Source of the DNA: Fusarium oxysporum f. sp. lycopersici 4287
Taxonomy: Eukaryota; Ascomycota; Sordariomycetes; Hypocreales; Nectriaceae
Direction of reading: 5' to 3'
DNA length: 64,000 nucleotides
NCBI RefSeq assembly: GCF_000149955.1
Contig: NC_030986.1
Location: 2,634,084 to 2,698,083 of the forward strand
This document shows positions 26,812 to 64,000 of this stretch, one piece after another; positions within the stretch are counted from its first letter, which is position 1, and each line of letters begins with the position of its first letter. The position numbers were made by a program, and so were the translations under genes. The notes under the pieces were generated by a model. That model saw only the letters and a program-made list of their open reading frames with translations, did not search any database and had not been told where the DNA came from.

Positions 26812-29653
26812 ATGGCACCAACCCTGCTCAAGAAAGCCAGTCAACAATTCGTTCGTCTTTCGTCCTGCGATTCGAAGAATATAATTGAAGCGTCTCCAGG
26901 ATCTAAATTGATTATTACAGACGGCTCAGAGGTGCAAAATTCACGGAAATTTCGCAATGGTGGTTCCAAAAGATGGGCACCTTTTCGAGGTGCCTTCAAG
27001 AACATGAGAAAAAGCGCACGCAGTCGTAAGCTATCCTATCTGTCTTGTTCTTATCCCATTAACATGCAGTAGGTGCTGAAGTATCCAAAGATGCTCATGA
27101 CCTCCCCGAAGACCAAGCCAAACCCCATTTACTTTTCAGATCTGTCCCAAGACTTGAACGTGGAACGAGAAGTCCAGATGCAAAGGAAGTAATGATACGA
27201 AAGTTGGGGTTGCATCCCACGGCTATGACATCCAACTCTACTTTGGTGATCCGAAATTCCCCAAAACGAGCACGAAGTTCTCTGCAGCTGGTCAATCCTA
27301 CTCCCTCCAGTGGACTGATCACTCCGCCCTCTTCTGAGGCATGCGATACACTCACAACAGCCGATGAAAAGTCCACAGCGAAAACTTCGATGGAATCATC
27401 TACGTTGCCGAACTGGGAAATCATGGATAGACGATACAATAGACGAAATCCATGGACCCGCTCAAGCCCTGAAGGCCGCGCTCTCAGTACTATTCCCGAG
27501 GCCGGTGTTGTTCTTGCTCGACCTACCATTGCAACTGTAGAGAGGGCATCCGCCGCCAAGATTTTCCTCGAGACTTACTTCAATGAACTTCTCTATAAAC
27601 CAAATGCAAGAGCTTTGCGGGACCAGTGCCTTGAGTCTCAGTTGTGCAACTATTTGCTAATAACACCAGAGGAGAAGGAGAAGATTCGGGTGCAATATAG
27701 AAGGCAGGAAACGTGCCATCTCAGAGAGTCGAGGGCAATGAGGGCAGGTTCTTTGGCTTACCATGGAAACCAGGACTCCTCCCCCTTGGCCAACAACTAC
27801 GAGCCACTTCAAATTCTAGGCAAAGGCAGTTTCGGAGTAGTCAGACTGGTGCGTGAAAAACCTGCTCCAGGACACGCTTTCCCCGGCCAAGTCTATGCTA
27901 TGAAAGTCATTCGAAAGACAGAAATGCTGCGGAACAGCCAAGAAGGCCATCTGCGGGCTGAGAGGGATTTTCTTGTGGCTTCTGAAGGATCACAGTGGTT
28001 AGTACCAAAGCTGACCAACACTACAAGGTGACTGACTGACTGAAGCACCTTCTCAGGGCTGTTCCACTGATTGCCAGCTTTCAAGACACAACGAACCTCT
28101 ACCTGGTGATGGAGTACATGCCTGGTGGCGATTTCCTCGGATTACTCATTCGGCAAAACATTCTGCAGGAACCCATTGCACAGTTTTACATCGCAGAGAT
28201 GATCCTTGCTATTGAAGAGGCCCATCGCTTGAACTTTATTCACCGTGACATAAAACCAGACAACTTCCTCATATCCGCGACTGGTCACTTAAAAATATCC
28301 GACTTTGGGCTAGCATTTAATGATCACTGGTCCCACGACGCAGCATACTATAATACCCACCGGTATTCCTTGGTCCGAAGACTAAATATGAACATCAATG
28401 GTGACGAGACGGATCAAAAAGGCAGTAAGGATCTCCTGAAGCATCTTGAGTGGTACCAGTCCCTTGTTTCCGGACTTGACAGGCATGGGAAACATCCATT
28501 GGCGAGTAACGAGGACTTGCGAAGTCTTATCGGTTGGAGAAATCGACATGGTAATCGCACTGCTGCGCGTTCCGTCGTTGGTACCAGTCAGTATATGGCT
28601 CCTGAAGTCGTTCTTAGTCAGAAATATGACGGGAGGTGTGACTAGTAGAGCATCGGCATCATCCTGTATGAATGCCTGTACGGGCAGACGCCCTTTCTAG
28701 CAGAAGAAGGACGCAAGCAGACGAAACAAAACATCGTTGTGAGTATGTCCGTATCAACTTGAACAAGGTAAATGACTGACAGTGGCCGCAGGACTTCAAG
28801 AAGAACTTTCAGTTTCCACCCAGGCCATTCNNNNNNNNNNNNNNNNNNNNNNNNNNNNNNNNNNNNNNNNNNNNNNNNNNNNNNNNNNNNNNNNNNNNNN
28901 NNNNNNNNNNNNNNNNNNNNNNNNNNNNNNNNNNNNNNNNNNNNNNNNNNNNNNNNNNNNNNNNNNNNNNNNNNNNNNNNNNNNNNNNNNNNNNNNNNNN
29001 NNNNNGTCAACAGTCACGACACTTTACTCTCATAAATCCTTGAACTACAAAAAATGTGCGGGATCGTGCCGTTCGTCAAAGGCCTTTACGGAGGATCTCA
29101 TGGAAGCCATTGATGACCTCTTCCCAAACCGTTCTGCGGATTCGGCACCGCTTATCAATAATCGCCAACCATTTCAACTTCAGCAGCCCCATCGGCAACA
29201 CACTACTTTGATGAATCCGAACTATTGGAAGACTGGTCTGAGTCGATACCGTCGGGCGTCTGTCTCAAATCGGAAGATGTCAAGGAGTTACTTTTTGGAT
29301 TTGATACCCATGTGCAAGCAAAGGCTATGGAGCTTATCAAAATCCCGTTCGACGCGGCCAAGCTTCGAAGTATAGACCGTGATATTGATTCATCAAAGGA
29401 ACTTCAGCCGAGTGAGAAGGCTACACTGAAGCAGTTTATTAGATTTTATGGTCATAAAGAGCGCAAACGACCAAGAGACATGTTGCTCCGGGACAAGGAT
29501 ACCAAAAAGACTTCATTAAGAATTCGAAAAGAGACGGCTTTCATGGGCTATACCTGGCGTCGGATGAGACCCGGTGGATATATCGATCCAAAAGTAACAG
29601 AGATGCCCAACATGGACGAAAGCCAGGCTTTGACACCGAACATTGAGTGTTGA
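26812..29653 (+). pseudogene. NDR/LATS-family AGC protein kinase, apparently disrupted and gapped
   Basis: Exons 26812-27025, 27070-27997 and 28057-28738 join in phase, and a fourth begins at 28792 and enters the assembly gap. The N-terminal regulatory region has the Mob-binding pattern ERASAAKIFLETYFNELL and RRQETCHLRESRAMRAG. The kinase domain is intact in most places: LGKGSFGVVRLV (Gly loop), VYAMKVIRK (ATP lysine), FIHRDIKPDNF (catalytic loop), ISDFGLAF (Mg loop) and SQYMAPEVV. It also has the long NDR-type insert between DFG and APE. At the conserved DWWS position, however, the codons read GAC TAG TAG AGC (28640-28651), two stops in a row. The frame resumes as SIGIILYECLYGQTPF. Beyond the gap the C-terminal tail THYFDESELLEDWSESIPSG is in frame up to the stop at 29651, but the 200 nt before it need frame changes. 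NDR kinases drive polar growth and septation. Probably a pseudogene, or else a sequence problem. Confidence 0.75.
28831..29005. other. Assembly gap (175 N)
   Basis: A run of N inside the kinase locus, so the C-lobe of the kinase domain is missing from the data. Open frames that cross it are artefacts. Confidence 0.99.
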
Positions 29654-29843: not shown

Positions 29844-31522
29844 TCATTGCGATTTGGACCTTTGGTTGGTATTGCTGTACGAACCAGACTCTGTTAAAGC
29901 AGCTGGGTCACCAGATGCAACGGCTTTGGCATTGCGAATCTCCCACTCAAATTCCTTGAGGGCCCGGATTTCCCAAGAGAAGAAGAGTAGCGAGAGCAGA
30001 CCATCGATAACACCAGCGACCAAGCTAAGACTGCTGGCCAGCATGAGGACGAATGCGACATAATTTCCAGGACTAAACCAGACAGCGACAAGACATGCTA
30101 GCCAGACAAGCAATGCGCCAAAGAAGTGCACACCCCGCCAGTAGCGCTGGCGAATCTCGCGAGCATGGTATTTTTGTATCATTCCCAGAATCTCATCATA
30201 GGTGGACGCGTGAAATAAATCGCGATTAAAGAAGCGACCTCGCCTCAGCTGGGTATCGGGATCCGCAGTCTGCGCTGCGTCACCTGAGTGAATGCTGCTA
30301 GCCGGGCTACTGGGGGCCAAGTATGCGCCAGTCTGGAGAGCAGCAGATGGTGTTTCGGAGCGGGGATCAGCTTTAATAGGCAATGGGGAAGGGGTATGCC
30401 GGACGAGCGTGGCTTGAACAGCAAAGTGGTCGGAGAGGGAACAGAGGAGATCAGGATGCCGCTCAGTCATTGAAACATGAGCCGACTTGACGATCCAACC
30501 AGGAGCGGTAGCAGGAGCATCGGGGTCGATACCTGTCGAGGCAAAGATGTAGTCGAGTCGCTGACCTTGAGGATCAATCGTATCGGGTGGGACCTCGCAG
30601 AGATCGCCTCCCTTGAGCCGGTTCTGCTGATTTTTGTTCCAGCGCCATGTATTATAGACGGAATTGCTAGTTGCGCCATTCTCGACAAGATTGAAGTCGG
30701 CTGTCGGTAATGGCCGATGACGATCCTTCTCAGATGGATGGTAGGCAGGACCAAGAGCGCTGTCAGGGTGTAATTTGCGCCAGACGTCATGAACAGGCGC
30801 ATGTGCTGTTATTACACGGTGAAATATGGACAAGGGTAACATGTTGAAATCACCCATTCCGATAACGAGGTGTCCACGTTCAGCAGCGCCGCGCAAAAGC
30901 TTTGAAATCTCCCATGACTGCGCAACTCGATGGCAATCGTATGTACTCACGGGCTCGGGCTCGTATGGGGAGTGAGTCTACGAATTCAAGTCAATTAACA
31001 GGCTGAAAAGCGATATAACAGATTCAGACTCACATGTGTGTTGAAGACCTCGATAATGTCCTTTCTCCTTGGCCCAAAGCGAATTTTGGCGCAAGCAACA
31101 CCCTTGCCTACATACCAGTCTCCTCTCCAAAATGCAGTTGGCCGTCCATTGAGGGGATACTTGAACATGGTACTCTCCTCGATCGGCCAGTGACTCAAGA
31201 TGGCCAGACCGCCACCAAAAGCACCGCTGTGGTAGAACTTTCCATACGGGAGAACCTGGCGGGTGTGATGCCGAATGGCTTGGTAGTCCTCCTGCGTAAA
31301 ACATTCCTGCAAGGAAACGATATGCGGTGTAGGGACAGCATGTGCAATTCTATGACCTATCTCGTCAAGCCTTGCAACTCGCTGGGTCGATATGTAGCGA
31401 AGACCCCAGCAGTTGAGGGTCAAGAGGTTGATCTCAGAGGGGAGATTATGAACATCATCATTGTTGACGGCAATGGTGGAAGGCGTTGTGACATGCTCAG
31501 CAGCGTCACTTGCCATGACCAT
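29844..31522 (-). CDS. ISC1: Inositol phosphosphingolipid phospholipase C (neutral sphingomyelinase family)
   Basis: Two exons, 31522-31034 and 30977-29844, join in phase to 540 residues. The junction gives EVFNTHTHSPYEPEP, as expected in this family. The endonuclease/exonuclease/phosphatase fold is complete. It starts INLLTLNCWGLRYIS (Asn), then IVSLQECFTQEDY (metal-binding Glu), SGAFGGGLAILSHWP (P-loop-like segment), VIGMGDFNMLPLS (Asp and Asn), GQRLDYIFAS and LLCSLSDHFAVQAT (closing Asp-His pair). Two membrane helices lie near the C-terminus (GALLVWLACLVAVWF and FVLMLASSLSLVAGVIDGLL), which tether the enzyme to ER or mitochondrial membranes. It hydrolyses inositol phosphosphingolipids to ceramide. 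MVM at the start allows initiation at 31522 or 31516. A CGCGTCGCGT element lies about 330 bp upstream. Confidence 0.93.
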
Positions 31523-31849
31523 GGCGCCGGTGGAGTATGCGGAAGTAATGGTGACTGATATGTCTCGTAAATATCAGACCGTCGGAGGAAGAGGGTGAGA
31601 CAAGGGACCGGGCATGGGACAAGTTTTGGATCTCAGGTCGGAGGGTGGAAATATTGAACGTGGCGCGATGCCTCGGCTGCTGGATATTAGTTAATTAGAT
31701 GAGGGCACCGGCCAGGTGTCACTGCTATTAGCGGTAGAGCCTAAGAAGCGTAAAAACGACAATAGTACAAATTAGTTACGATCGAAAGCAAAATTCTAAA
31801 ATGAGGGAGATGCGATGGACGGTCACCGCCAAGGAAAAGGAGTGAGAAC

Positions 31850-43900: not shown

Positions 43901-45976
43901 CTACATTGACACAATCCGACCTGCTGGTGCGCTGGCACGAGTTCGAGGTCGTAGGTTAATAACTGTCTCTAGCTCCCGAAGCATACCCTTTGGTTTGCAT
44001 CAACGTGCTGTCGGGCAAGAGCCTTTTGTTCTCGCTCTTCTCGAAGCCTTGACTATTTCTTTCCTCTCTAGTGAGCGTGCTTCGTGGTCGCGGGAGACCA
44101 ACGGCTTTCAAAAACTTCNNNNNNNNNNNNNNNNNNNNNNNNNNNNNNNNNNNNNNNNNNNNNNNNNNNNNNNNNNNNNNNNNNNNNNNNNNNNNNNNNN
44201 NNNNNNNNNNNNNNNNNNNNNNNNNNNNNNNNNNNNNNNNNNNNNNNNNNNNNNNNNNNNNNNNNNNNNNNNNNNNNNNNNNNNNNNNNNNNNNNNNNNN
44301 NNNNNNNNNNNNNNNNNNNNNNNNNNNNNNNNNNNNNNNNNNNNNNNNNNNNNNNNNNNNNNNNNNNNNNNNNNNNNNNNNNNNNNNNNNNNNNNNNGTT
44401 CGAGTCGTTCAGAGTTCTGTCAGATTCTTCACGAAGCAGTTGCAGCTTCGCCTGTAGGCCCCTGATTCCGCTTGATAGTGAGTTAAGTTTCCGAAGTTGA
44501 GCTCTCCAGCGCTCCCGTCCAGGCGTAAGGGCATTCTTTGGCGTAGGGGAAGATGGAAAAGCTAGGGAAGCGTGAGCATGTGACTAATCGATGAGAACTT
44601 GCATCATATTCTTACTATCTTGCTCGCTGAGAATGCTCTGTAGCCTAGCATGAGCAGTTTGAGTTGAGCTGTTGACGCTCAAAAGAGACTCTACGGCCGT
44701 TGTCCAACGAAGCAAATCATTTGCATCACTGTTGGCATCCAGAGCAAGAAGGGCGCAAAGGAATAGTTTCCGTATGGTGGAGAATCGAGCAGCCAGAATT
44801 TTGAGGGTCCTCAAGGATTCAGGATCGTCCAAATCCTCATCACTTAGTCCTTGACGGGCGTCTGACATGTCGAAGTCGGTAATGTCGTATATATCGTAAT
44901 ATTTTTCCAAGTCTGTTTGCTCCGCAAATCCGTTGACAACTGTACAAACCTGGTTGTAAGAATCAAGAACCTCTTGAAAAGAATGTCTCAGGGCTTTGCG
45001 CAGTCTGACACAACGCCGGGTTTGGGTACGGTCTTCTATACGGCTGATTGGTGGCAGGGGAGCGCTGCTGTAAATTGTTCAGTGCATGTGGTGGCAAGAA
45101 AATGAAAGACCTACAGTCTGTAACCTCGAGACACCAACTCGACTTCTTGTATGAGAGAGATAGCTGCACCTGACGCACTGTCAAAGTTGTGTGAGTTTTC
45201 GACGAAAGAAGTGATTTCAGACAGCGATTGCGATCTTCGATACCGGAGCCATTGTCGTTTCATGTAAACCTGGCCAAGCAGGACGGCGGCTGCGCAAAGC
45301 ATGAGAAGAAAGACCAGCCTCTTCTTGGTAACACCACTGCCAAGAACCCAACTCAGAACAACCGCAACCGCAAGAGCGGCAAGAACTGATGCCAGAATTC
45401 CTTCCGTGGACAATAGGGATTCATCTTCGTTCGTTGGCGGGCTAGGTCCCCTGTTATCGAGCTGCGACTGCCCCAGGCCCGAATGGCCACTTAAAAGCTG
45501 AGACGCAATGATGGTATATCGGAATTGTTCGAGAAATTTGGCGTTGTCAGCTCGGTCGATACTCGCTGCAACCGCGGCCTATGGCAAGTGGTTTTAGCAA
45601 TCGTTGATAGGTTACACCAGTTCGAGGTGACGTACTGAATATTTCCTGCTAGCAGATCGCAATGAGGAGGGCTTCGGAACTTGTAAATGAAGCCCATTCG
45701 GAGCCTTATTCCGGAATCTTGGTTTAACCAAAGGTCGACCAGTGGGTGCGAAAGGGGATGGACTGGATGGTGGTGATGGGCTTGATCGACCAGCGGATGA
45801 ATCAAGTTCGGGCGTTACTGCACCGGGCGCCCAGTCAGCCTGGGGCTCATCTCCCCCATCTTGAAGTATGTTAGTCCACATAAGGGAAGAGCGGTATCGC
45901 GCGCAAGGGAGAATGATGCTCGCTCACCTCTGAGGTAGTCGGCGAACGGAGTCTCCTCATACACCACGGGCTCCAT
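43901..45976 (-). CDS. Vezatin-domain protein (peroxisomal myosin-binding type), gapped
   Basis: Exons 45976-45928, 45859-45636, 45578-45115, 45067-44616 and 44561 into the gap join in phase. The protein starts MEPVVYEETPFADYLR, then has a Pro/Ser-rich stretch and the segment NAKFLEQFRYTIIASQLLSG. Two adjacent membrane helices follow (GILASVLAALAVAVVLSWVL and RLVFLLMLCAAAVLLGQVYM). The soluble helical domain continues QSLSEITSFVENSHNFDSAS and CVRLRKALRHSFQEVLDSYN, then EKYYDIYDITDFDMSDARQG. This is the Vezatin / 'myosin-binding motif of peroxisomes' family, related to yeast Inp2, which attaches peroxisomes to class V myosin for inheritance. The C-terminus lies left of the gap: RPRSTLTREER, LREEREQKALARQHVDANQR and MLRELETVINLRPRT, ending at 43901. 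These three pieces are in different frames, so the end of the model is uncertain. Confidence 0.72.
44119..44397. other. Assembly gap (279 N)
   Basis: A run of N within the last coding part of the Vezatin-type gene. Frames that cross it are artefacts. Confidence 0.99.
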
Positions 45977-50085: not shown

Positions 50086-53000
50086 TTAATCTACATAATC
50101 TACCTCAGTTTGACCCATTGTCTCAGTCACAAGACTAATATGACTCCGAGCGCCGATGGAAGTGCTCCCACCATCACTTGCGCCACCGAACAGACCCTTG
50201 GAGCGGGGCACAAGAACCTGTGCAGGGCATACCACTATCTCTTCGTCGCCCTTACCATTATCATCTCCCTTTTTGACGACAAGTGGGAAAAGCACAACCC
50301 GAACAATGGCACCTTGTGCCTCAAGGTCTTCATTTGAGGTTGTAATGCTGCCGCTTCGTTCGTTCATCATTGATGCGTTGAATTGAACTGTCGCGGTAAG
50401 TTCACCGTCCGCGTCGTATTCAGGGCGCAAAGGCGGCAGCATCATATATTCAGCTTTTTGCGTCCGCATCTCGATCGAGAGACCAACGGCCTCTCTCATG
50501 ACACGTCGTAGCTGAGATTGAATTTGATCTTCCAAGTTCGACGGTGGTGGGAGGATCTTACACAGTGTTTGGAAGATGGCCTGAACAACAGCCTCTGTAT
50601 CCAGATCACGTTGACGCTTGAAACTTTCGCGCTTCGCCAGTAAAGTCAAGGTAACGGCGCGCCATTGGCGTACCGCTTCGATAGGGCCGACTTCGGTCAG
50701 CAGCTTCTCCAGTGACTTAAGCTTCTGTCTCTGCTCTCTATCCATGCCAAAAAGATAGCGAGTAAAGACAAATTCCCAAACCATGTTCATGGTCATGGAC
50801 ATGAAGATATCGCGTCTCTTCACACGGTCCCGGAGATAAACGTCGACGTCGGATCCATCAAGTACGGCGTTGTCGAGTCGATCAATTGTCTTCTCATCAT
50901 TTATCTCGCTTGTTAAGCGGCAGGCGCGCATATCAGAGAATTTGGAGAACCGAAGCACCCATTGCTGAACATGGGAACAAAGTTGCTGGCAACGATGGTC
51001 GAAATGATCCTCATCGCGGATGTTGAGAAAATGGTCGTCGCCAGCCTTGGCTTCTAAAATCTGGCGCTGAAGGTCACGAATTTTCTCTTTGGCAGAATCA
51101 AGTTTGGCGCGAAGCTCGGCAATTTCTGCGTCCTTTGCTTCAAGAGACTGTTCAGTGTTGCCTTTCTCGCGTCGAGCTTCTTCTAGCTCACGCGCGACAG
51201 CGGCATTGCGACTCTCAAGATCAGTTACACGGCCATTGTCTTTGCTTGCAAGCTCGGCGTTGGCGCTTGCAAGACCGTCGTTAACTTCTGTAAGTCTAGA
51301 GACTTCGTTCTGAAGAAATTGTAATGACTGCTTGAGATTGTCGATTTCAACATCGCGATCGGCTAAACTGCTGGCAGCTCGTTGACTAAGGCTCGTCTCA
51401 GCCATAGCGCGGGCTTCTGTGAGCATTCGGTTCTCGGCCATTAGCTGCTCGACCTTATTCTCGAGTTCGAGAACCTGCATGCTTTGTCGGCGGCGCATGC
51501 TGTGTGGCCGGGTTGGTGACCGGGGTGAGCCGATGCGACCCTCACCGAAGCCATCCTTTGTTATTGTTAGTGCCATATTACATTAGGATAAAAATTGGTG
51601 ATAGACTTACATAGACGTCGGCCATGTCCTTGGCACGGGCGCGACCCTCATTTGCGACAGGCGTGGAACTGATGGGTGCGGCGGCGGTGGTGTTTTGTTG
51701 ACGTAGAGCCCGCAAATCACTGCTCATTCGCTTGTCAACACGGCGGAGCGGTGGTGTGGGGGTGCCTGACGAGCGGTTGATGCCTGGGCTATCAGGCCTC
51801 AACTTAAGCGGCTCCGGGGTCCGACGCCGAGAGAGGCTGGTGTTAGAGACAGTTCGACGTCCGGAACCCTCGAGACGAGGTGTTGACCGACGAGAAGGAG
51901 TGGCATTGTCTGAAGCGCTTCTCTGACCAGAAACTGATGATGAAATCGGGTTGGAATTCGTAGTCGGAATTGGAATTGGTGTTGAAGGCTCAGGTCCTCG
52001 TAGGGCTGCCGCTAAACCCGCACCCGCTGCAACGGCGGCGACTGCCGTGCCAGCTGGAGTTAGAGCCCCATATTGTTTCTTCTTTTCTGGCTCCGGTGTT
52101 GGTCCAGGTACTGCAGGCTCTCGCAACACCGGTGTGCCTCGCGGAGATCGACGAAGTCTTCGCTCGCTCGGTGGATCGGGAGTTTGCAAGACCGCGCGGT
52201 CTGCAACTGGCTGTATCTGACTTTCCCTTTCAGCCCAGTCTTCGGTATGCGCTCCACTGTCGCGTGAAGCCTCTTGACTAGCAGGTTTGCTTCGCCTTAG
52301 AGTTGCTACCTCCCCTCCAAATCCGCTGTCACGATGTGCCTCTTCACTCAGGCGTCTACTTCGTCTCTGGAAGCTCAATGCTTCACCAACAGGAGCGCTG
52401 TCGCGTTTGGCTTTTGGTGTTGAGAATGCATCCTTGGCTGGCTCAACTTCGGCCTCGGGAACCTCTGGGACTGGCTCCAAGAGTCTGCTTGGTGATCGTC
52501 GTAGATCACTAATGTCCGATTCCGATCCCACCTGTGGTGTAAATGTCTTGCTGTCCTCTCGTAACAGACCGCTTTTAGGCTCCTCAACGTCAGATCCACG
52601 ACGAAGAAGAGGCTGGGGGGAGCTTCTCAACAGCTCCAACTCTCCTTTGCCAAGCACCGGACTTTCCATCGTGTCTGACGTTTCTGCATATAACTGCCGC
52701 GAAGTTGATTTGCGCTCTTTCTTCGGGTTTGTTGAAGGACCTTCAGATGTGCCACGAACTTCCGATGTTCCCTCGTAGCTCTCCGAGCGCCTACTCTTTC
52801 CTGGCGCATCGAACAACATCTCATGAACAGACGATGTGACATTGTTTGTCTTTCTTGAAGCTTTTGGTTTTCTCTCTGCCAGTTCGCTTTTGTCTTTAGC
52901 ATCTGTAACAATGTCACGATGCCTTTCCTTGTGGTCAGCACTACCACTAGCGAAGTTTTTTTCTGGTTTCTTCCTCCTCGCATCCTGGACTTCTCGGTGC

Positions 53001-56000
53001 GTCGGGGTTTCTCCCTGTGTCCTTTTGTCAATATCTTTCGCAGTTAATTTGGTGTCATTTGAGCCTTTTGTTGCTGCTTCCACATCATTTTGCGGTTCCT
53101 TGTTCCTTTCTTCCACTGTCTCATCCCTGCTTTTGGGTTTCTTTTCTTCTTGTCTTGCGCCTTTACTCTTGTCGCCTTCTGTCCAGTCCCCGAACATGGC
53201 AGAGCTGAACGTTGCGGCAGTGGCTGCAATCATTCCAGCAAATGTCGATGTACTGGGCTTGCTAGATTTATGCAGGTCTGGTGCATCTTTCGAAACGTCC
53301 GAGGTGGCGGCTGTAGCCTCTGGAGGCTGACCCGTAGGTTCTTTTACGGCTTGTGGGCTCGCATCAGGAGATCCTTTCGGAAATATGGAAGTCAACTCGG
53401 ATTCTCTTAGGGTCCTCTTTCCCTCTTTTGCATCGAAGTTTTGTTGTGATGATGATCTGTCAGTCTCTTTCAGCTGTGTTGCCTCATTTACAAGTGAAAA
53501 CTGAGCATCTCGATCAATGGCAGATGCATGTTCCGATGAGACTGATGGTCCAGAGGATCTCGCTTCCAAGCCTAACTTCCGGGCTTTCTTCATTTGTTTC
53601 TTCGACAACTTGTCAATAGATTTGATGTCACGCAGCTCTGTCGCTGTCGCAGTCAAACTTGATGGCCCATTGGAGTGACTGCTTCTCTCTTCAGAGGTCA
53701 TGCCTCTAGAGCGTGCATCTCCACTCGATTTTATCTCCTCCGACCAAGCCGTAATGGAATGACTCGTGGAAGCTGGCGTCATCTCCGTATCCTCGTCCAC
53801 TGTATCATGTACAAGTGTAGTTGCGGGGATATGTCGCAGGGTGGGAGTTGTCACAGGGGATTCTGGGGCTATGTGACCATCTTTTGTCGGAGCAGGAGCG
53901 ATATCACTTGTTCCAGGACCTGATGCAACTTGAACGGCTGTATCTGGCTGACTTTCCATTACCAATTCGGGCTGAAAAGGCTTGGCATGGATTAGGTCAC
54001 CGTCCTGTGGCGGCTTGTCTGTTTCTTCTTTATTCCCAGGTTCCGTCTTGACCAGTATTGGCCGTAAATCATCTAACACTTCCGTTGTCGCAAGCTCTTT
54101 GGAAACTGGGGCATTCGGTTCTGAGAGAAGGTAGTTATTGACAGGATCGCCAGAAACAACTTGATTAGATAGCATTCCTTGATTCCTTTCTCTTGCTGCT
54201 TCGATAGATCCATGATCCGTTTGCTTCTGCTTCTTTTTCTTTTGGGCCAACTTTACGAGCGGATCTCCTGCGGCAGCAGGTGAAGGTTCAGAGAGTTGTC
54301 TTGGCGAGGGCCCAACAGATGCATTTGCCTCAACCTGCGCCAGCGACGGCCCGCCTTTGCTAAAAGCAGATGATTCGCCTGTCGATGTTGGGGGACTTTG
54401 TGCAGTTTTGACAGTGGGGTTTCCAGTACCAAAATCTTGAAGGAGGACATCCGCTTCTTCCTTCTCGGCGACAGTTAAATCAACAACAGGGTCGTCCCTG
54501 TACTTGTTTTCAAGGTGTTGCTTTCCTTCTGTGGCCTGATGCGGTGCCTGATCGGTCCCCGGGGCCTCGGGCACAAGTGAGAGGTTTGGCATAACTTCTT
54601 GGGCCCTATCATCAAGTTTTGAATCATCCAGAGTCGACTTGCTGTTAGAAGCTCGGGGGAACTCGGTGCGCGTCCGGCTTGCTAGCTCTGGGGAAGCTTT
54701 CTCTTCTGTGGTCAACGTCTCAGAAGCGTAGCCCGTCTTTATGTTCTTGTCATTCTGGAAATGCGGTGTGGTTGAGTCTTCCATCTGAGCAGCTTCCTCA
54801 ACTTGGTTTGATGGTACATTTGATTCGTCAGGCACAGCGGGGTGACAGTTACTCTCGATCTCAGTTGCGGCTGTCATAGGCTTTACCCCGTATGGTGGTT
54901 CTGGCTCCGGGAAGGCATCGCCCGACTTGGCTGGTGCTGCTCTGTTATCAATCCCAACCTGGTCAGTGGTTGGAAGTCCAGTTCCTGGCTGGGTTTCATG
55001 AGGATCGTTCAACATTGCATCAGCAGGCGTTGGCTGGTTTTGAATTTCCTGTTGTGTTTGGGCATCGTCCAAGACTGCACAGTTTTTGTTGACATCGCTT
55101 AGTACGAGAGGAGCAGTGTTTGAATTCGGCTTCGGCTGCTTCTTCTGTTCTTCCTTCTCTGGGAGTATGGCATTCTCATCGCCTGGCCTGATACCGACAA
55201 GATCTTCCTGGAACAGCTCAGCTTGTGCATCAAATGGAGAAACATCTAAGGTGTCGTTTCTTGAATCAGGGATATCTGTCGCTGATCGCGTTGTGGCATC
55301 GTGCCGAGGTTCTGTTGACTCGAACTCCAGATCCTTCAAGGTTGTGAGTGTGCCTATGTGCATAGATTCATCAGACTCTTTGACAGAAACGACTCGTAGG
55401 CCAGAGTTTCCTTCTGTGTCCAGATGGGACCTGGAAACCTCAACTGAGTTATCAGCGTTACTAAGTTCAGCCAAATCAAAGCTCATCGCTTGTTTGGGGG
55501 GTTCTTGTGGAACGTCAGGTGCTGGATGGTCGATCATGGTTGGGGAGTGATCTGTTGATGGAGCGAATGTAACCGCACTATACTTGTCCCAGGACCTGCC
55601 GTCAATTTGATGCTTTTGAACAAGCTCAGCAGAAAGAAGGCAAGCTTCGTGGTCCGTCTCAGCCCTAGTAGAATTGGCTGGCTCATCGCTGTAGACGAAA
55701 CTCTCTGCTGGAACAAGGGCAGGCTCATCGTGTTCCCTGGTTTCCTTGGTCTCCTCTGGCAAAAAGTCAGATGCTAGAACTGGTGCCACTTCATCACTGG
55801 CTTCACGTGTTTCCTGTTGTGACAGCGTCTCTACGGCACATCTAGCGCTGACAAGACCCGCATCGATCTCTGGAATATCTTTGGACGAGTGCTCCAAATC
55901 TGGAGGTGTTTGGCTAGTGAGCTGCTCTGTTTTCACTTCTTGATTCGGCTTGCTCTGCGGCGGTGATTCCCATTTTGACGCGATAGTTGATGGAATTGGC

Positions 56001-59000
56001 ACGCCATCGCTTCCCGGCTCCTGTTTGTTTGCATTCTCAGTCAGCAGAGAGCCATGAACGTCTTCCTGCATATTAGACGCGTGTTGATCCTTTCCAGAAA
56101 ACACGGGTGTCTCTGCTATGATTTGTGTCTCGGTCAAAGCCTGAACTTCGTCGTCCGTCTTTGTGTCGCTGCTCGGTTCCCTCTTGGTTTGTTGCATCGG
56201 AGAAGGTCCAGTATCACCATCCAGCGGCTTTTGTTGATCAAGCTCAGTCTCGCGGATTGATCGTGTCTCAGGTGCAGGTGCTGCGTCTGCGAGAAAGCCC
56301 TTGTGGATGCCATCATTGCGAACCTCGAAGGTCGTTTTCTTCCCAACATTGTCTTTACTAGTAGATGTCCTTGGCGCCTCCAGATCTTGCGCAAGTTGTC
56401 CACCACTATTGTCACTAACTGATTCGATTTGAGATATAGGAGGGCTAGTTTCGGACACAAGTTCGGGCAGAGGTTTGCCAATTGAGTGAGTCGGTTCAAA
56501 AGAAGGCTGAATGATTGGGTCGAGACCCATCTTTCTTAACTTCTTTTTCATCTTCTTCCTGTCCTTAGAAGGAATGGCTGCCCACTCCTCGGCGGTAAAC
56601 TCATTCTCAGCTTGCCGAGGGCCTGAGGAATGAGGATGTTCATCACCTGTAGTGTCCATCAGCTGGTTTGGAGAATCAGGCGAAATCGACCCTGGTATTT
56701 GTCGAGACCGTGGATTCGCCGTCGCGAGACCCTCGGCCACTTGGTTCTCATCGGCCTCATTGACTGGTTCGGAATCTTGGACGCCTACACCATCCAATGA
56801 TTTGAGTTTGCGATGAGAAATAGCAAGCTCATGAGATGGTGCAGAAGAAGATTCTTCATGTTGAGATTCGGAAGAGGGTTTTGTTGTCCTCTCCTTCGTA
56901 GACTGATCTTGTTCCTCATTTTCTATGTCGACAGCAATCTGAAGAGGGATCATTGATTTGGATTCTGCGGCAGATACAGGGGAATCAGAGGCTCCCAAGC
57001 CTGCCCTTGGGTCAGACGTGGATGCAGCAGTAATTACGGAGTTTGCTGGAGGATTTGCAGGTGTCATCAATTCATGAACGACTGCGAGGTTTGGAGCGAT
57101 GTCGACGTCAGCGGGTTTGCTTGGCTCCTCCACCTGGTCGACATTTTCATTGAGAGCCTCCTGCTTGTTTTTATTCTTTTTCTTTTTCTTCAACTTCTTT
57201 TTCTCTGCTGGAGACAAACTTTCAAAGGCCTCAGTCATGCCGTGGTCAGGGTCTGCTGAATTCTCTAAAAAGAAAGAAGTAGCTGTAGGTGCTCTCTTTG
57301 GACTGGAAGCATCGGTAACCTTTTGAACGGTGAGCGGGATCGGTGGAGTATGCGACTGTTCATGAGCCTGTTGAGAGGTTGAGTTCGGCAACTTGGGCTG
57401 GGCGGGAATATCTGACGCTTGTTCAGTGGTGTCTGGCGGTGAAGGGTGGTCCTCGAAAGACTCTATGCCCAGGGGGGGTTGTTCAACTGCCTTCGTTGCA
57501 ATCTGCTGTGGTGAGGAGGTGAAGACATCATAGGCAACGGTATCAGAAGCAGCTGTGTTTGTGACACTGAGTTCCCGGTTATGATCTGGTTTGCCTTCTT
57601 TGAGACCATGTAGAATATCAGTGTTTCCACTGACGGAGTCGAGCTCCGAATAGGGGTTTGCAGAAGCTCCAGAAAGCTGCGGAATAGACTCAATATTATC
57701 ATCAGTTGCTTGTCCAGGGGCAATTTCATCCGCAGATCCGAGAGGTGCGCCTGTCGATATATTCTCATTTGACAAAGAAGACTCGAGCACCATGGAAGCA
57801 GCAGCTTCCTCAGATAGGCTGACATATGTGCTGTCTGTCGTATCATTCTTTATTTCGAAAGAGAGCGAGGGATCTTGAATGAGCTCTTCCGTGAGATTTG
57901 GCTTGGCTGCGACATCGGCCTCTTTGTCCGCCTCAAATTTTGAGCCACAGACCTCAATCGTTTCAACATGTTCTTTGAGTGTCTGTCTTGGTAGAGCCCA
58001 AGATTCTAATGAAGCATCAATTTCCACCACGCTCTTCTGCTCAATTGCACTATTAGTAATTGGGCCTTTACCAAAATTAGCGACTTGATCCTCAGTATCA
58101 ACCTCCGGCGCAGGAACAATGATATCCTGTCCAGGGGCTGTCTGTTGCTTAGACTCAAGGTGTGATCCCTGAATACCGGCATCAGCTTCAGGCTTGGCAA
58201 TAGCTTGTCCAGTCGGAGAGTGAATATTGGTGTTGTCCAGAGATTGAGTCTCATTTTTGGACTCAGATTCAGCTTCAATGACGGGCTCAATTATAGGTAC
58301 AATCTCCTCAATCTCCGGGAGTCCTTCTTTCTCATTCTTAAAGTCAGGCTCTGGATCTGCCTCGGTAGAGCTTTGGGCAACAGGTTCGGATTGAACCTGG
58401 GGCTTTGGTTCAGATTCCAATCCAGTTTCAGCCGATGGTTCCGATGGTACCTCTTCAGAGGCTCCGGTTTCCTTGGGCGTCTGTGGTTTGGATGAGGAGT
58501 CCAAGGCAGCCAGAGCCTTGACTTTCTTCAACTTCTTGATCTGTTTTTTTGACAAGCCTGCAAATTCCTTATTGTCTTCTAGTTCCTGTCCCGGTTCCGA
58601 TTCCGGCTCCAGCTTCGTCCCGGACCCGACAGAGGCTTCAAGATCGCCAGCTATGCTCGTGTCCTCCTTCCGTTTTGTACCCTCTGTAGATCCTTGGCTC
58701 TGGGCCTTATCCACGGCGGCGGCGGCGACGTCCTGCTTTTCCGGATCCGGAATCGTCTCCGGCTCCGTTGGACGGTTGGTCTCGGGGTCCTGCAGGATTT
58801 CAAAATCGTTGTCTTTAGCCTTCTTCTTTTGGTCGGTCTGGGATTGACTGAGGCTAAACCCACCCCGCTCGTCTTCAGGACCAGCTGGTTCTTCGCTTGG
58901 AAGCTCTCCGGAATTACCGGTATCTGGTACATTGATATGATCGGCTGGAGGAGTTATTTTATCCTCCAAAGGAACCGCTGTGTCAGGTGTCTCGTTTTCA

Positions 59001-62000
59001 TCGGTCTGCTTAGGGGTCTCATCGTGCGCGGCTTGAGGATTTTCGGCTGGGGCATTGATTCCAGTATCGACCGAAACGTCAGCATCCTGAGAAGAGGCAG
59101 CAAGGCCAGGCTCAGTTTCAGTTTCCTGGGTTTCTTCAAGAGCAGCCTTCTTCTTTTCGGCCTTCTTCTTCTTCTTCTTGTCCTTCTTTGACAGTTTCGC
59201 CGGTGAATCGGGTTCCTCGACTTTGGGAGGATTTTCGGAGGGAGGTTCATCGAGTGCTACAATATCAGGCCTGTCGGTGGCTGGTGTTGGTTCCTGGACA
59301 GAAGGGGTTTCTACGGTGGTCTTGGCATCAGCTGGCTGTGTCTGCTCATCATCTAATGGGGTAGTCTCGACAGTGTTTATCACTTTCGACTCCATGGGAG
59401 GCGGCAGCTCATCTTGATGGACAGGCGTTTCTGTAGGTTCAATGCCACTTGACTCTGCAGTCTGGGCAACGTCGGACTTTGCTTCTTGCGAGGCAGAGTT
59501 CTTGGCTGTATCAGAGATCAAATCTTCAGAAGTTGACTCAGGAGGTTCTTGGAGTGTGGGTTCGGCTTCAGGCTGCTTCTCTGGCTCGTCAGAAGAGGCA
59601 TTCTTCTTCTTTTTCTTCTTTTTCTTGCTCTTCTTATCGGATGAGGTCTCTGGCTCGGCCTCTTCCACAATAGCAGCCGAATTTGCTTCAGGGTGGCTTT
59701 CAATGGCCGTTCTCTCGTTTGCAGGCTCCAAGGGATGGCTCACAGCAGGGATGTCAGGCTGTTCGGCATCCTTTGGTGGCACTTCAATTGGCGCCTCCTT
59801 GGCAACTGGTTCCGCAACCGGTACTTCGTTGACGCTGGCTGTAGACTCATCGAGGCGCACGGGCTCGGATACTATAACAGGCGGTTCGCTGTTCTGTGTT
59901 GCTGCACCTTGAACTTCCACGTTCTCAACAAGAGATACCGATTCTTCTTCTTCTTTTTCTTTGACTTCTTGCTGCTCGCCAGCTCTGAAGTTTCGCCTTC
60001 AGGAGCTTCTATAGCATCTTGAGGCTCGGCAGTCACAACCGTGTCAATAGCATCAATGTTTTCCTCGGTCCCTTCTACAACTGGCAGGGACATTGCCGCC
60101 TCGGTGGTCTCGGTCGGTTGTCCAACATCTTGAGTCTCACTTTCAGTCGAAACTTCATTGGCGCGGACTTCACTGACATCCGGAGGCCTGGCGGTAGGCA
60201 CTTCCTCACTTGGGTGACGTTTGTCATTCTCTAGAGTGCCCTCGGCCTTCTTTGATGTGTCGATTGTTTCAGACTCCTGGGCGGGTCCTTCAGTATTGCT
60301 GAGGTCCATCGGTTTCTCAGAAACTTGCTCTTCGACTTCAGGGACAACTGGTGCCGCTAACCTTCGAGCGGCACTCTCTTCAAGGGCAGCAAGACGTATT
60401 TGATCCTTCTTCAAAAGACGCCCTTTCCTCCTCTCTCTCTTCTCCAGGAGAGCTTCGATCTCTGCCTTCTCGCTCTCTGCCTCAAAGCTCCCAACTGCGA
60501 GTGAGGGTTCTTCCTCGGCGGCTTCCACCTCCAGAGGATGAGCATCTGGTCTCTCTGGAGGCAGGGCTTCATCAAGAGCAAGTTGAGGGGAAACATCATC
60601 TGCGGCCGGTGGTAGCTCATCTAGTGAATGTTCGTTCACTGGCTTTTCGCTCTGTGCCTCGCCTCTTATTTCAGGCCCAGCTGACACGTCTGCTGTTTGT
60701 GATTCATCCCTGATATCAGGGACAGTTGAGTTGCCAAATGTGGGTGCCTGTTCTTCGGTATCGGGCCCCATTAGGAGATCGGTCTGCGAGCGTTCCTTAG
60801 ACACAGCCTCGGACGGTTCATCACCCATTTGGGGCTGTTCTTCAGCTCCAGGCTGAGATGGCTGGCCATCGGCTTGAAGCTGTTCCTTCAGCTCAGATTT
60901 AGGTGGTTCGTCATTGATGTGCGCCAATTCTTCGACCTTAGGCTTTACTGGCTCTTTTCCGATCCCAGATTGATCCGGAACGTGATGCTCCGCTGAGTGG
61001 TCATCAATCTGTGATCGTTCTTTGATTTCAGGTTCAGTCGGCTCAGCGTCACTCGGCAGCCGTTCCTTATGCCCATGCTCAGACACCTGATCATCAGTCT
61101 GCAACCGTTCACTGGTTTGCGGTCCCACTGAAGCAGTATCCAACGGTGACTGCTCTTGAGGTTCGTTCTCAACTGGCCTATCATCAGACGGTGGTTGGTC
61201 CTTGGCTTCTGGTTCGTCTAGTACGCCATGTGTCGACTCGTCATCAGGCTTCTGGTCGAGGAGAGCATTTTCAACAATAGAGTCAGAAGATTCAACCATG
61301 GGATCTGGCACCAGAATGTCAAGATTATTTCTGCCAGGCACTACTGCTGTTTCGGCACCTGATACGTCCTGGCTGATTTCAACGTGCGTAGTAGTATCTT
61401 TGGTCTCCTCCTCGGGAGCCTCATCCTGGCTAGGCTGGTTCTTCTTTTTCTTCTTGTTCTTCTTGGCCTTCTTCTTCAATCCCGTTGCGTCGGCTTCGTT
61501 ATTTTCGCCAGTTGCTTCCACACTGGACTTCGCACTCTCTCCTCCAGTTGTCTTGCTGGCATCTTCTTTGGGCACTTCTTCAGTGCTGGCTTCGACAGGC
61601 TTTGTGCTCAATTCTGAGCCTGCTTCAACAATTCTCACATCCTCATCCTCAACTGGATTAATAGGCTCTTCTTTGACAAGCTGGCCAAGATCAGCCTGAG
61701 CTGGTATTGTTGAGTCCTTGTACGTAGCCTCAGTGGATTCATGTGTCGGGGAGTTATCATCAGCCGTAGTTATTGTCGAGGAGTCTTCTTGTTTGATTTC
61801 GTCGGACTTGACTTCAGTAGCCCCTGTTGCCTCCACCACGCTTGTTGCCGGATGACTTATGCCATTATCTTTTAACCTTTCGGCGGATTCCTCCTCAACA
61901 ACGGAGATCGGGGCTGTCTCGGTGAGCTGTCTGTCCATGGTGGTAGTCACTTCATCCTCAGCAAGAATGTCGCGGTTAGCATCCCCTGTGGCTTTGACTG

Positions 62001-64000
62001 ATTCGTCAACTTGAGAAGGTTCCAGTCCAAAAGAAGTTCCTTGAGATTCGTCTGCCGGCGCATCTCCTTGAGAGAAGAGTGGTTCAGAAATCTGGGCTTC
62101 TAATGTGGTGTGAGCCGCTTTGTTGGCATGCGTATCGGGAGCGGTCTCAGCAGCGGGAATGTCTGGCTCGATGTCGGCAACTTCTGGGTTTTCAGCGCTT
62201 ACGCTAGTAGTCTCTTTATCCCTGGGAGCGTCACGATCGAGTTTCGGTGTAATAATATCAGACCTAGTGTCTGTTGCCGCTGACTTATCAGCACTTACTG
62301 CATCAGGCTGGGTCTGAGCATCAGGTTCAGGTTCGCCCGATTTATTTTGTGTCTGCGCTTGGTCCCGGAATCCCCACATCCTCTTGAAAGCGGAAATTCC
62401 AGCCGTGGCGGGGAGTGCACGAAGAGCAGATGGGAAGTATCCTTGGCTTTGTCTGTCTTTTCGTGCATCTTTGGCGGAAGTGTGGGAATCACGAGCGGTC
62501 GGATGATAGTCGACATCATCTTTGGACTCAGGATCGTCAGGCTCGGGAGCCTCAACTGGAGAAGCCTTTTCACGATCAAGAACTTGATCATTATTTTTGG
62601 ATAACAAAACAGGCTGTGAGTCCGGAGCCTCATCGTCTTGAGTAACATCGGCGGGCTCAGCTACCAGAACGGGCGGCTCTTCTATCAAGCTTTTGTTGGT
62701 ATCCTTAATCGCTTCATTGTCTCCAGTGTCCTCAACTTGAAGAGGTTCCCCTATTTGAGGCATGTCTTGTTTCTCCACCACTGGCTCATCATCGGCTCTG
62801 GCGCCCTTCTTCTTCTTTTTCTTCTTCTTCGACTTGGGCGTAGCGGCGCTGTCACCCTGTGTTGATACAATCGGAGTTTCGGAAGCCGGGTCAGAAGTTT
62901 TCGTAGATTTATCCAGTGTCTTCTCTAGAGCATCTACGCTTTCAGCCATGGTATCTGGTTGGGCCCAGGCATCGAATGCATCTGCATCGACAGGCTCAAC
63001 AGGGAACTCTGAGAGTGGTTCCACCATAGAACCTGAGTCACCATGAGCAACTGTTTCAGATGATTCAGCAGAGGGTTCAGTGGGCGCGACTGGCTCCGTC
63101 CAAGCATCAAACGCATCTTTTTCAGCTTTAGAAATTTCAGCTGGACCTGCGCCTTCAACCTCGGTGACTGTTGGCTCTACAGAAGTTGCTTCCTCTTCGG
63201 ATGGCTGCTGCATCTTGCTCTTCTTCTTTTTCTTCTTACTCTTGGATGGAGACACCAGTTGCTCTTCAAGGGCCGTTTCCGCAATAGGCGAAGCAGTGAT
63301 GGAGGTCGATTCCGCGGTAGCTTGAGCATTGACAGAAGATTCGATTACGGGTTCAGGCTCTATTAGTGGTACCACAGATTCGATGGCGTTGTCTAGCCCT
63401 CTTGGTGGCTCCTCCGCTTCCTGGTCCGCCAGTAAGTTCGAATCAACTGGTTTGTTTTGCTCAACGACTTCCTGGGCCTCTTCAGACTGTGCGATCGTAT
63501 GCTGTTCCTCATGCGAAGCCTCAGGCTCTTGGGGTTTCACGGCTTCGGTGGCGAATGGGTCGGTAGAAGGATCCTGAGAGGGTTGAGGTGTAGATTCGTG
63601 GGTGGGCTCGAGTTCAACCATAGCCGGCTTTGTTTCAGATGCTTCATTCACTGCGGCAGCCTCGTCGCCTGGGACGGCATGGTCATCCTTGCTAGCAGTG
63701 GGGACTAGAATGTTGAATGAGTCTTGAATGATCGGCTCAAGTCCCTTCTTCTTAAGCTTCTTCTTCATGTTTTTCCTATCCTTTGCGTTCATGGTTGACC
63801 ACTCTTCGGTGGTAATCTCATTTTCTGCACGCTGGGCAACGGTGTCCTCAGGCTTTACGAACGGTGTTTGCGAGTCTTCAGTGGCAGGCTCAGTATGGGC
63901 AACAATAGCTGGTACGGATTGAGGCTCGGTAATAGGGTTGGTCATCCCGGTGTTGATGTCGCGAGCAGTATCGGTAGTTCGCTTTTCGTCCATAGGCTGG
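50086..64000 (-). CDS. Giant low-complexity protein of the fungal 'involucrin-repeat' type, 5' end outside the window
   Basis: About 13.9 kb of almost continuous coding sequence, over 4,600 residues. The first piece (from beyond 64000 to about 59940) and the second (about 59920 to 51611) are in different frames. The second joins the last exon (51555-50086) by a clean 55-nt intron, reading KDMADVYDGFGEGRIGSPRS. The long N-terminal part is acidic and disordered, rich in Glu, Pro, Ser, Thr and Ala, with recurrent lysine clusters. One module occurs twice: EEWSTMNAKDRKNMKKKLKK at about 63800 and EEWAAIPSKDRKKMKKKLRK at about 56600. A 13-unit tandem repeat lies at 60619-61200. The C-terminal 490 residues differ: coiled coil (MQVLELENKVEQLMAENRML onward), then a globular helical region (WEFVFTRYLFGMDREQRQKL; LLTEVGPIEAVRQWRAVTLT). 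Such proteins occur across Pezizomycotina; cellular role unknown, perhaps a scaffold. Many antisense Phe/Ser-rich frames opposite it are shadows. Confidence 0.8.
60619..61200 (-). repeat. Coding minisatellite: 13 tandem units of 15 residues
   Basis: Inside the giant gene. Units read, in protein order, DQPPSDDRPVENEPQ, EQSPLDTASVGPQTS, ERLQTDDQVSEHGHK, ERLPSDAEPTEPEIK and so on to GEAQSEKPVNEHSLD. Twelve units are exactly 15 residues and one is 14, so the nucleotide period is 45. Units usually start (E/D)(R/Q) and have Asp at position 6 or 7. Confidence 0.85.

Follow-up and report, generated by a model that had tools for sequence, protein, structure and literature searches.

The kinase gene and its tandem stop codons

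The window, that is, the whole stretch of DNA analysed here, comprises 64,000 nucleotides of contig NC_030986.1 of Fusarium oxysporum f. sp. lycopersici 4287. It corresponds to C1:2634084-2698083 in the numbering used for the genome that was scanned (61.24 Mb in 71 contigs, designated C1 onwards). It contains a protein kinase gene whose reading frame is interrupted, within the kinase domain, by two adjacent TAG codons. Judged by its sequence, the gene is the orthologue of PUK1 of F. graminearum and STK-21 of Neurospora crassa. We consider it very probable that the two codons are premature stops corrected by adenosine-to-inosine (A-to-I) editing in the sexual stage.

The features of the gene are collected in Table 1. 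The three introns (27026-27069, 27998-28056 and 28739-28791) were set by eye using GT..AG sites and homology, and gene bases are counted from the ATG at 26812 with introns included. The spliced model runs through 576 open codons to the two TAGs, which lie in frame at 28643-28648 on the forward strand (codon run 28640-28651, GAC TAG TAG AGC), and then continues as SIGIILYECLYGQTPF...PPRPF as far as the run of N that begins at 28831. The piece that is open in frame downstream of the stops has 43 residues, and no stop or frameshift other than TAGTAG is found in the pre-gap part of the spliced model. An earlier reading of this DNA, made from the letters alone (the sequence-only reading), had placed a tandem TAG, with its A's at 28644 and 28647, at the Trp-Trp of an NDR kinase, with intact coding sequence on both sides and no other altered position before the gap. 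The gene model bears out the tandem stops and their place in the kinase.

The HRD, DFG and APE motifs are intact upstream of the stops, with a Pkinase match of 8.1e-30. Among solved structures, CBK1 and STK38 come closest to the exon 3 piece, which places it in the NDR branch. By its catalytic motifs and these NDR-type relatives, the predicted product is an AGC/NDR kinase.

Table 1. Features of the PUK1 locus (positions are those of the window)
Feature	Position	Strand	Basis or detail
Exon 1	26812..27025	+	ATG 26812; homology model; N terminus alignable with Fusarium homologues
Exon 2: N-terminal region and first part of kinase domain	27070..27997	+	Spliced model
Exon 3: kinase domain with HRD, DFG, APE and tandem stops	28057..28738	+	Spliced model; Pkinase match
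First TAG, first Trp of DWWS motif	28643..28645	+	A28644 = gene base 1833
Second TAG, second Trp of DWWS motif	28646..28648	+	A28647 = gene base 1836
Exon 4, interrupted by N gap	28792..28830	+	Spliced model
N gap, 175 N	28831..29005	.	Run of N
DNA foreign to PUK1, matching contig C11	29006..29198	.	193 bases, 99.5% identity
C-terminal tail (HYFDES...AFMGYTWRRM...), frame open	29201..29653	+	TGA 29651-29653

The hexamer TAGTAG is not rare in itself. It occurs 21 times in the window where 16.0 are expected, and 10 of 100 shuffles reach this number. It is the placement at Trp-Trp that is unusual. Of the sense codons among the 772 sequenced, 54 could become a stop by a single G:C-to-A:T change; the two TAGs bring this to 56, and the probability that two random nonsense changes of this type among these 56 possible codons would land on the tandem-stop pair is about 0.00065. 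As a control, eight other kinase loci of the genome were inspected. One matched the motif pattern (L023, in which DWWSVG is encoded with TGGTGG); the other seven gave no match.

Relatives, conservation and the editing machinery

In F. graminearum, PUK1 is reported to carry UAGUAG, which becomes UGGUGG by editing of A1831 and A1834 in about 90% of perithecial transcripts. The F. verticillioides orthologue is described with the second stop only (UGGUAG, edited at A1836), N. crassa stk-21 with the first only (UAGUGG, also edited) and the Magnaporthe oryzae and Claviceps paspali orthologues with neither (PMC4817773; also PMC5381528). PMC12582100 mentions PUK1 in connection with F. graminearum and F. 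verticillioides. The two A's of the window gene, at gene bases 1833 and 1836, can be set beside the edited bases 1831/1834 and 1836; for F. graminearum PUK1 (FGRRES_01058) the comparison is one of published positions. The pre-stop piece is matched at 94% over 99% of its length in both F. pseudocircinatum and F. anthophilum, and at 74% over 98% in F. culmorum. The identification as PUK1, already proposed in the sequence-only reading, is supported both by gene position and by this comparative evidence.

The best 120 of 2670 homologues with E<=0.001 (8000 candidates were scored) were classed by text pattern. Ten stop at the Asp that precedes the first Trp and six after the first Trp, with the reservation that protein records do not reveal the type of stop codon and that some are metagenome fragments. 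Both Trp are encoded in 12, the motif is skipped in 77 and the anchor is missing in 15. The skipping corresponds to the annotation problem reported for such sites, in which false introns bypass the edited stops (PMC4817773). As to whether the tandem TAG is conserved between species, a check suggested at the outset, F. graminearum is reported with both stops, F. verticillioides and N. crassa with one each, and 16 of the 120 listed homologues end at one of the two Trp. The accompanying proposal that close relatives with TGG TGG would refute editing is too strict, because the published orthologues do not all have the stop at the same Trp and are edited nonetheless, and some have no stop.

Conservation was compared before and after the stops. 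Identity to the three closest relatives (P0001-P0003) is 85-90% in the N-terminal 300 residues, 97-98% in the pre-stop kinase part and 89-91% in the C-terminal tail (C-tail); the after-stop piece is 92% identical to P0002 over 25 residues. In a set of seven sequences, changes private to the window gene number 5 in 287 columns of the N-terminal region, 1 in 267 of the kinase, 0 in 22 of the after-stop piece and 3 in 150 of the C-tail. The corresponding numbers for the four nearest relatives are 4, 5, 4 and 3 (N-terminal), 0, 0, 1 and 2 (kinase), 0, 0, 0 and 2 (after-stop), and 0, 0, 1 and 1 (C-tail).

The genome has a further gene with an in-frame TAG, that of the RID DNA methyltransferase (C8:1548406; L003 1255-1257), and rid appears on a published list of edited genes. 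The TAG lies at a Trp that is read as CRW, by pattern, in 61 of the 120 RID homologues listed. The pattern is absent from the 40 rows P0121-P0160, which all carry the name Fusarium, and in the stretches compared these models seem to jump the TAG. RID shares 97% identity, over the whole length of the query, with a record of F. oxysporum f. sp. pisi. The jump seen in the F. oxysporum record takes the form of a 30-base intron that ends in the TAG. An intron of this size would be unusually small, and the real one at this site may be longer. The RID TAG has a loop probability of 0.96-1.0 in four sizes of the segment used. In the Fusarium records examined, the models of both this gene and the kinase are probably wrong and have jumped the stop.

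Genes for the editing machinery are also predicted. Tad3 (C1:1355838) has 7bv5_C TAD3 as its best match and Tad2 (C8:3293014) has 7bv5_A TAD2; we take 7bv5 to be the yeast TAD2/TAD3 complex. Ame1 of F. graminearum is reported to be a DUF726 protein in which Met-Val 500-501 and Asp 589 matter for Tad3 binding, and editing by Tad2-Tad3-Ame1 is reported in yeast (PMC11087585). There are three DUF726 genes in the genome. In only one of them, at C4:1885891, does Met-Val precede the Asp by exactly 89 residues, the same spacing as in F. graminearum Ame1; at the Met-Val position the others have Ala-His and Ser-Leu. The choice of this gene as Ame1-type was made on DUF726 and on motif spacing, not by comparison with the F. 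graminearum sequence. Its match includes one TAA, which lies inside a plausible 48-base intron (GTACGT...CTAAC...TAG). On this basis the genome is judged to have Tad2, Tad3 and Ame1-type genes. Both A's of the PUK1 stops have U at -1 (UAG UAG), as do fungal ADAT-type editing sites. The stops, the frame conserved on either side, the relatives' predicted proteins that end at the same codons and the Tad2/Tad3/Ame1-type genes are thus all read from sequence.

F. oxysporum, a species complex, is described as having no known sexual stage (PMC3334483). The genome carries a MAT1-1 alpha-box gene, whose open frame is long, at C8:3027059. In the frames read, Tad3, Tad2, the Ame1-type gene and MAT1-1 have no evident damage.

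Counter-evidence, competing explanations and surrounding sequence

Several results weigh against editing of a working PUK1. The DNA between the gap and the C-tail (29006-29198) matches C11:1030975-1031166 (-) at 99.5% over 193 bases, with no mismatch and one single-base gap. In P0002 there are 76 residues between the pre-gap piece and the C-tail, and P0002 residues 569-663 remained unmatched in the genome, in a search that can miss short exons (residues 569-591, which are in the window, were missed too). A second genomic copy of the missing C-lobe segment was rejected within the same limit. If real, the C11 DNA and the unmatched 76 residues together would mean a broken gene. Private changes are slightly raised in the C-tail, and the three concerned (tail residues 8, 9 and 21) adjoin the foreign-DNA junction; they may reflect poor sequence or a real lesion. 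The predicted RNA structure is not distinctive. With 30 bases on each side, the hairpin-loop probability is 0.62 for the first A and 0.38 for the second; the 68 control UA sites average 0.41, and 37% of them reach the value of the first A. The result depends strongly on segment size: over five sizes the first A spans 0.00 to 1.00 and the second 0.00 to 0.99. The preference of fungal editing for hairpin loops is not clearly seen at PUK1, and a hairpin was not counted as support. Of two other genes tried as further edited candidates, both related to genes that published work describes as edited, DCP1 (one locus) has no internal stop, and SPO22 gave a match with one TGA, which is ambiguous and adds nothing to the case; both were rejected.

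A transposon reading was tried for the C11 piece and not adopted; the piece occurs in two places in the genome and has only short open frames across it. A frame about 2.4 kb from the piece is presumably transposase-like. From the start of the gap to the end of the foreign piece (28831-29198) there are 368 bases, which fits the 228 missing coding bases plus an intron. Because there is room for both, a chimeric contig end is favoured over a real insertion or replacement.

The alternative that we take most seriously is that the stops are true PUK1 editing sites from sexual ancestors, in a lineage that is now sexless, with the gene unused and perhaps broken past the gap. The lack of a known sexual stage would agree with this (PMC3334483), as would the C11 DNA within the gene past the gap and the private C-tail changes beside it (3 against 0, 0, 1 and 1 in the nearest relatives). 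An unused gene should fit less well with private changes that are not raised in the N-terminal region or the kinase, or with editing and mating-type genes free of evident damage, and the room for coding bases and an intron in the 368-base stretch suits a chimeric contig end. We regard this alternative as rather unlikely. Still more doubtful is an ordinary pseudogene, arising by nonsense mutation or repeat-induced point mutation (RIP) with no tie to editing, which we consider improbable. In its favour, each stop would come from a G-to-A change, in keeping with CpA on the opposite strand. The RIP indices of the gene are nevertheless at the window background (TpA/ApT 0.64 versus 0.70; (CA+TG)/(AC+GT) 1.29 versus 1.28), whereas RIP would raise the first index and lower the second, and RIP was rejected as the cause of the stops. 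Nor would this alternative account for stops at the exact codons reported as edited in other species, or at one of the same two Trp in the 16 listed homologues. An old pseudogene, in particular, appears disfavoured because conservation past the stops is about equal to that ahead of them.

Two further explanations have very little probability. Stop codon readthrough could give some full-length kinase without editing and would agree with the frame conserved on both flanks. Two stops in tandem are, however, a poor readthrough site, the same codons are reported as edited in F. graminearum and two other species, and an ARAGORN search of the window, which did not extend to suppressor tRNAs elsewhere in the genome, gave no tRNA gene. 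A sequencing or assembly error at TAGTAG might be suspected from the N gap 180 bases downstream, but it is implausible that two such errors should hit precisely the codons known to be edited, and we give it hardly any weight. The sequence-only reading had listed a recent pseudogene, a RIP-like or deaminase-like event, readthrough and editing side by side. Editing is the one that position, comparison and the machinery genes appear to support, while the background indices speak against a RIP-like event and conservation against an old pseudogene.

Some other features were recorded. A gene in two frames at 29844-31573 (-) has weak Exo_endo_phos matches, and we take it to be possibly an inositol phosphosphingolipid phospholipase C. 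At 51578-63993 (-) there are very long repetitive Lys-/Glu-rich open frames (2780 and 1373 residues), perhaps one large gene for a disordered protein. A further run of N (279 bases) occupies 44119-44397. Elsewhere in the genome, kinase matches of identical score are found at C3:2759049, C3:3372701 and C6:1703743, as expected from segmental duplicates.

Interpretation and comparison with known editing systems

If the stops are corrected by editing, as we think, the protein from unedited messenger RNA would end at the start of helix F, with loss of the kinase C-lobe, and vegetative cells would have no working Puk1 kinase. During sexual development, a Tad2-Tad3-Ame1 complex would deaminate both A's and UAGUAG would be read as UGGUGG. 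The resulting full-length Puk1 would act in ascospore formation and release. In this scheme the occurrence of editing, the complex responsible, the stage and the function of Puk1 are carried over from what is reported for F. graminearum, F. verticillioides and N. crassa.

In a species without a known sexual stage, the PUK1 site would either serve in a sexual cycle that has escaped detection or have come down, little altered, from ancestors that were sexual until recently; the sexless-lineage alternative is a sharper form of the second branch. We suggest only tentatively that an editing-dependent PUK1 (two stops) and RID (one stop), with the machinery in good order, reflect hidden sex, or else editing outside sex such as that of CHE1 in hyphae. 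Hyphal editing of PUK1 is less likely than the inheritance of unused sites by a sexless lineage.

Premature stops that depend on the sexual stage would form a readable record of sex, since a true loss of sex should let both the stops and the genes decay. Retention of the stops together with conserved downstream sequence could therefore provide a genomic test for hidden sex over the sequenced F. oxysporum strains. In the literature searched, we found no account of premature-stop A-to-I editing in sexual reproduction of F. oxysporum; PMC10776026, on restorative editing, lay outside the search and may treat this species. The word 'oxysporum' is absent from the main texts of PMC4817773, PMC5381528, PMC11156358, PMC11169179 and PMC11087585. 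The putative editing site is of a known kind, and its added interest lies in a host without a known sexual stage.

Several known systems can be compared with the window gene. In the OLD-ZAO antiviral module of N. crassa a UAG is likewise reported to be restored by A-to-I editing, although the deaminases and targets differ from those proposed here. The premature-stop-correction sites described in Sordariomycetes (RID, AMA1, AMD1 and CHE1) share the change of UAG to UGG, the U before the A and gene models that dodge the stop by false introns. CHE1 is reported to be edited in F. graminearum hyphae (PMC11169179), a stage that differs from the sexual stage proposed for the window gene. The orthologues in F. 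verticillioides (FVEG_01191) and N. crassa (stk-21, NCU03242) have a stop at the same Trp-Trp, reported as edited in perithecia, but one stop each (UGGUAG and UAGUGG) where the window gene has two. The last case is PUK1 of F. graminearum (FGRRES_01058). It differs from the window gene, which lies in a species without a known sexual stage and has a gap and foreign DNA in the assembly of its C-lobe part. The two share the tandem TAGTAG in the kinase domain at a nearly equal gene position, the kinase family and the presence of the editing genes.
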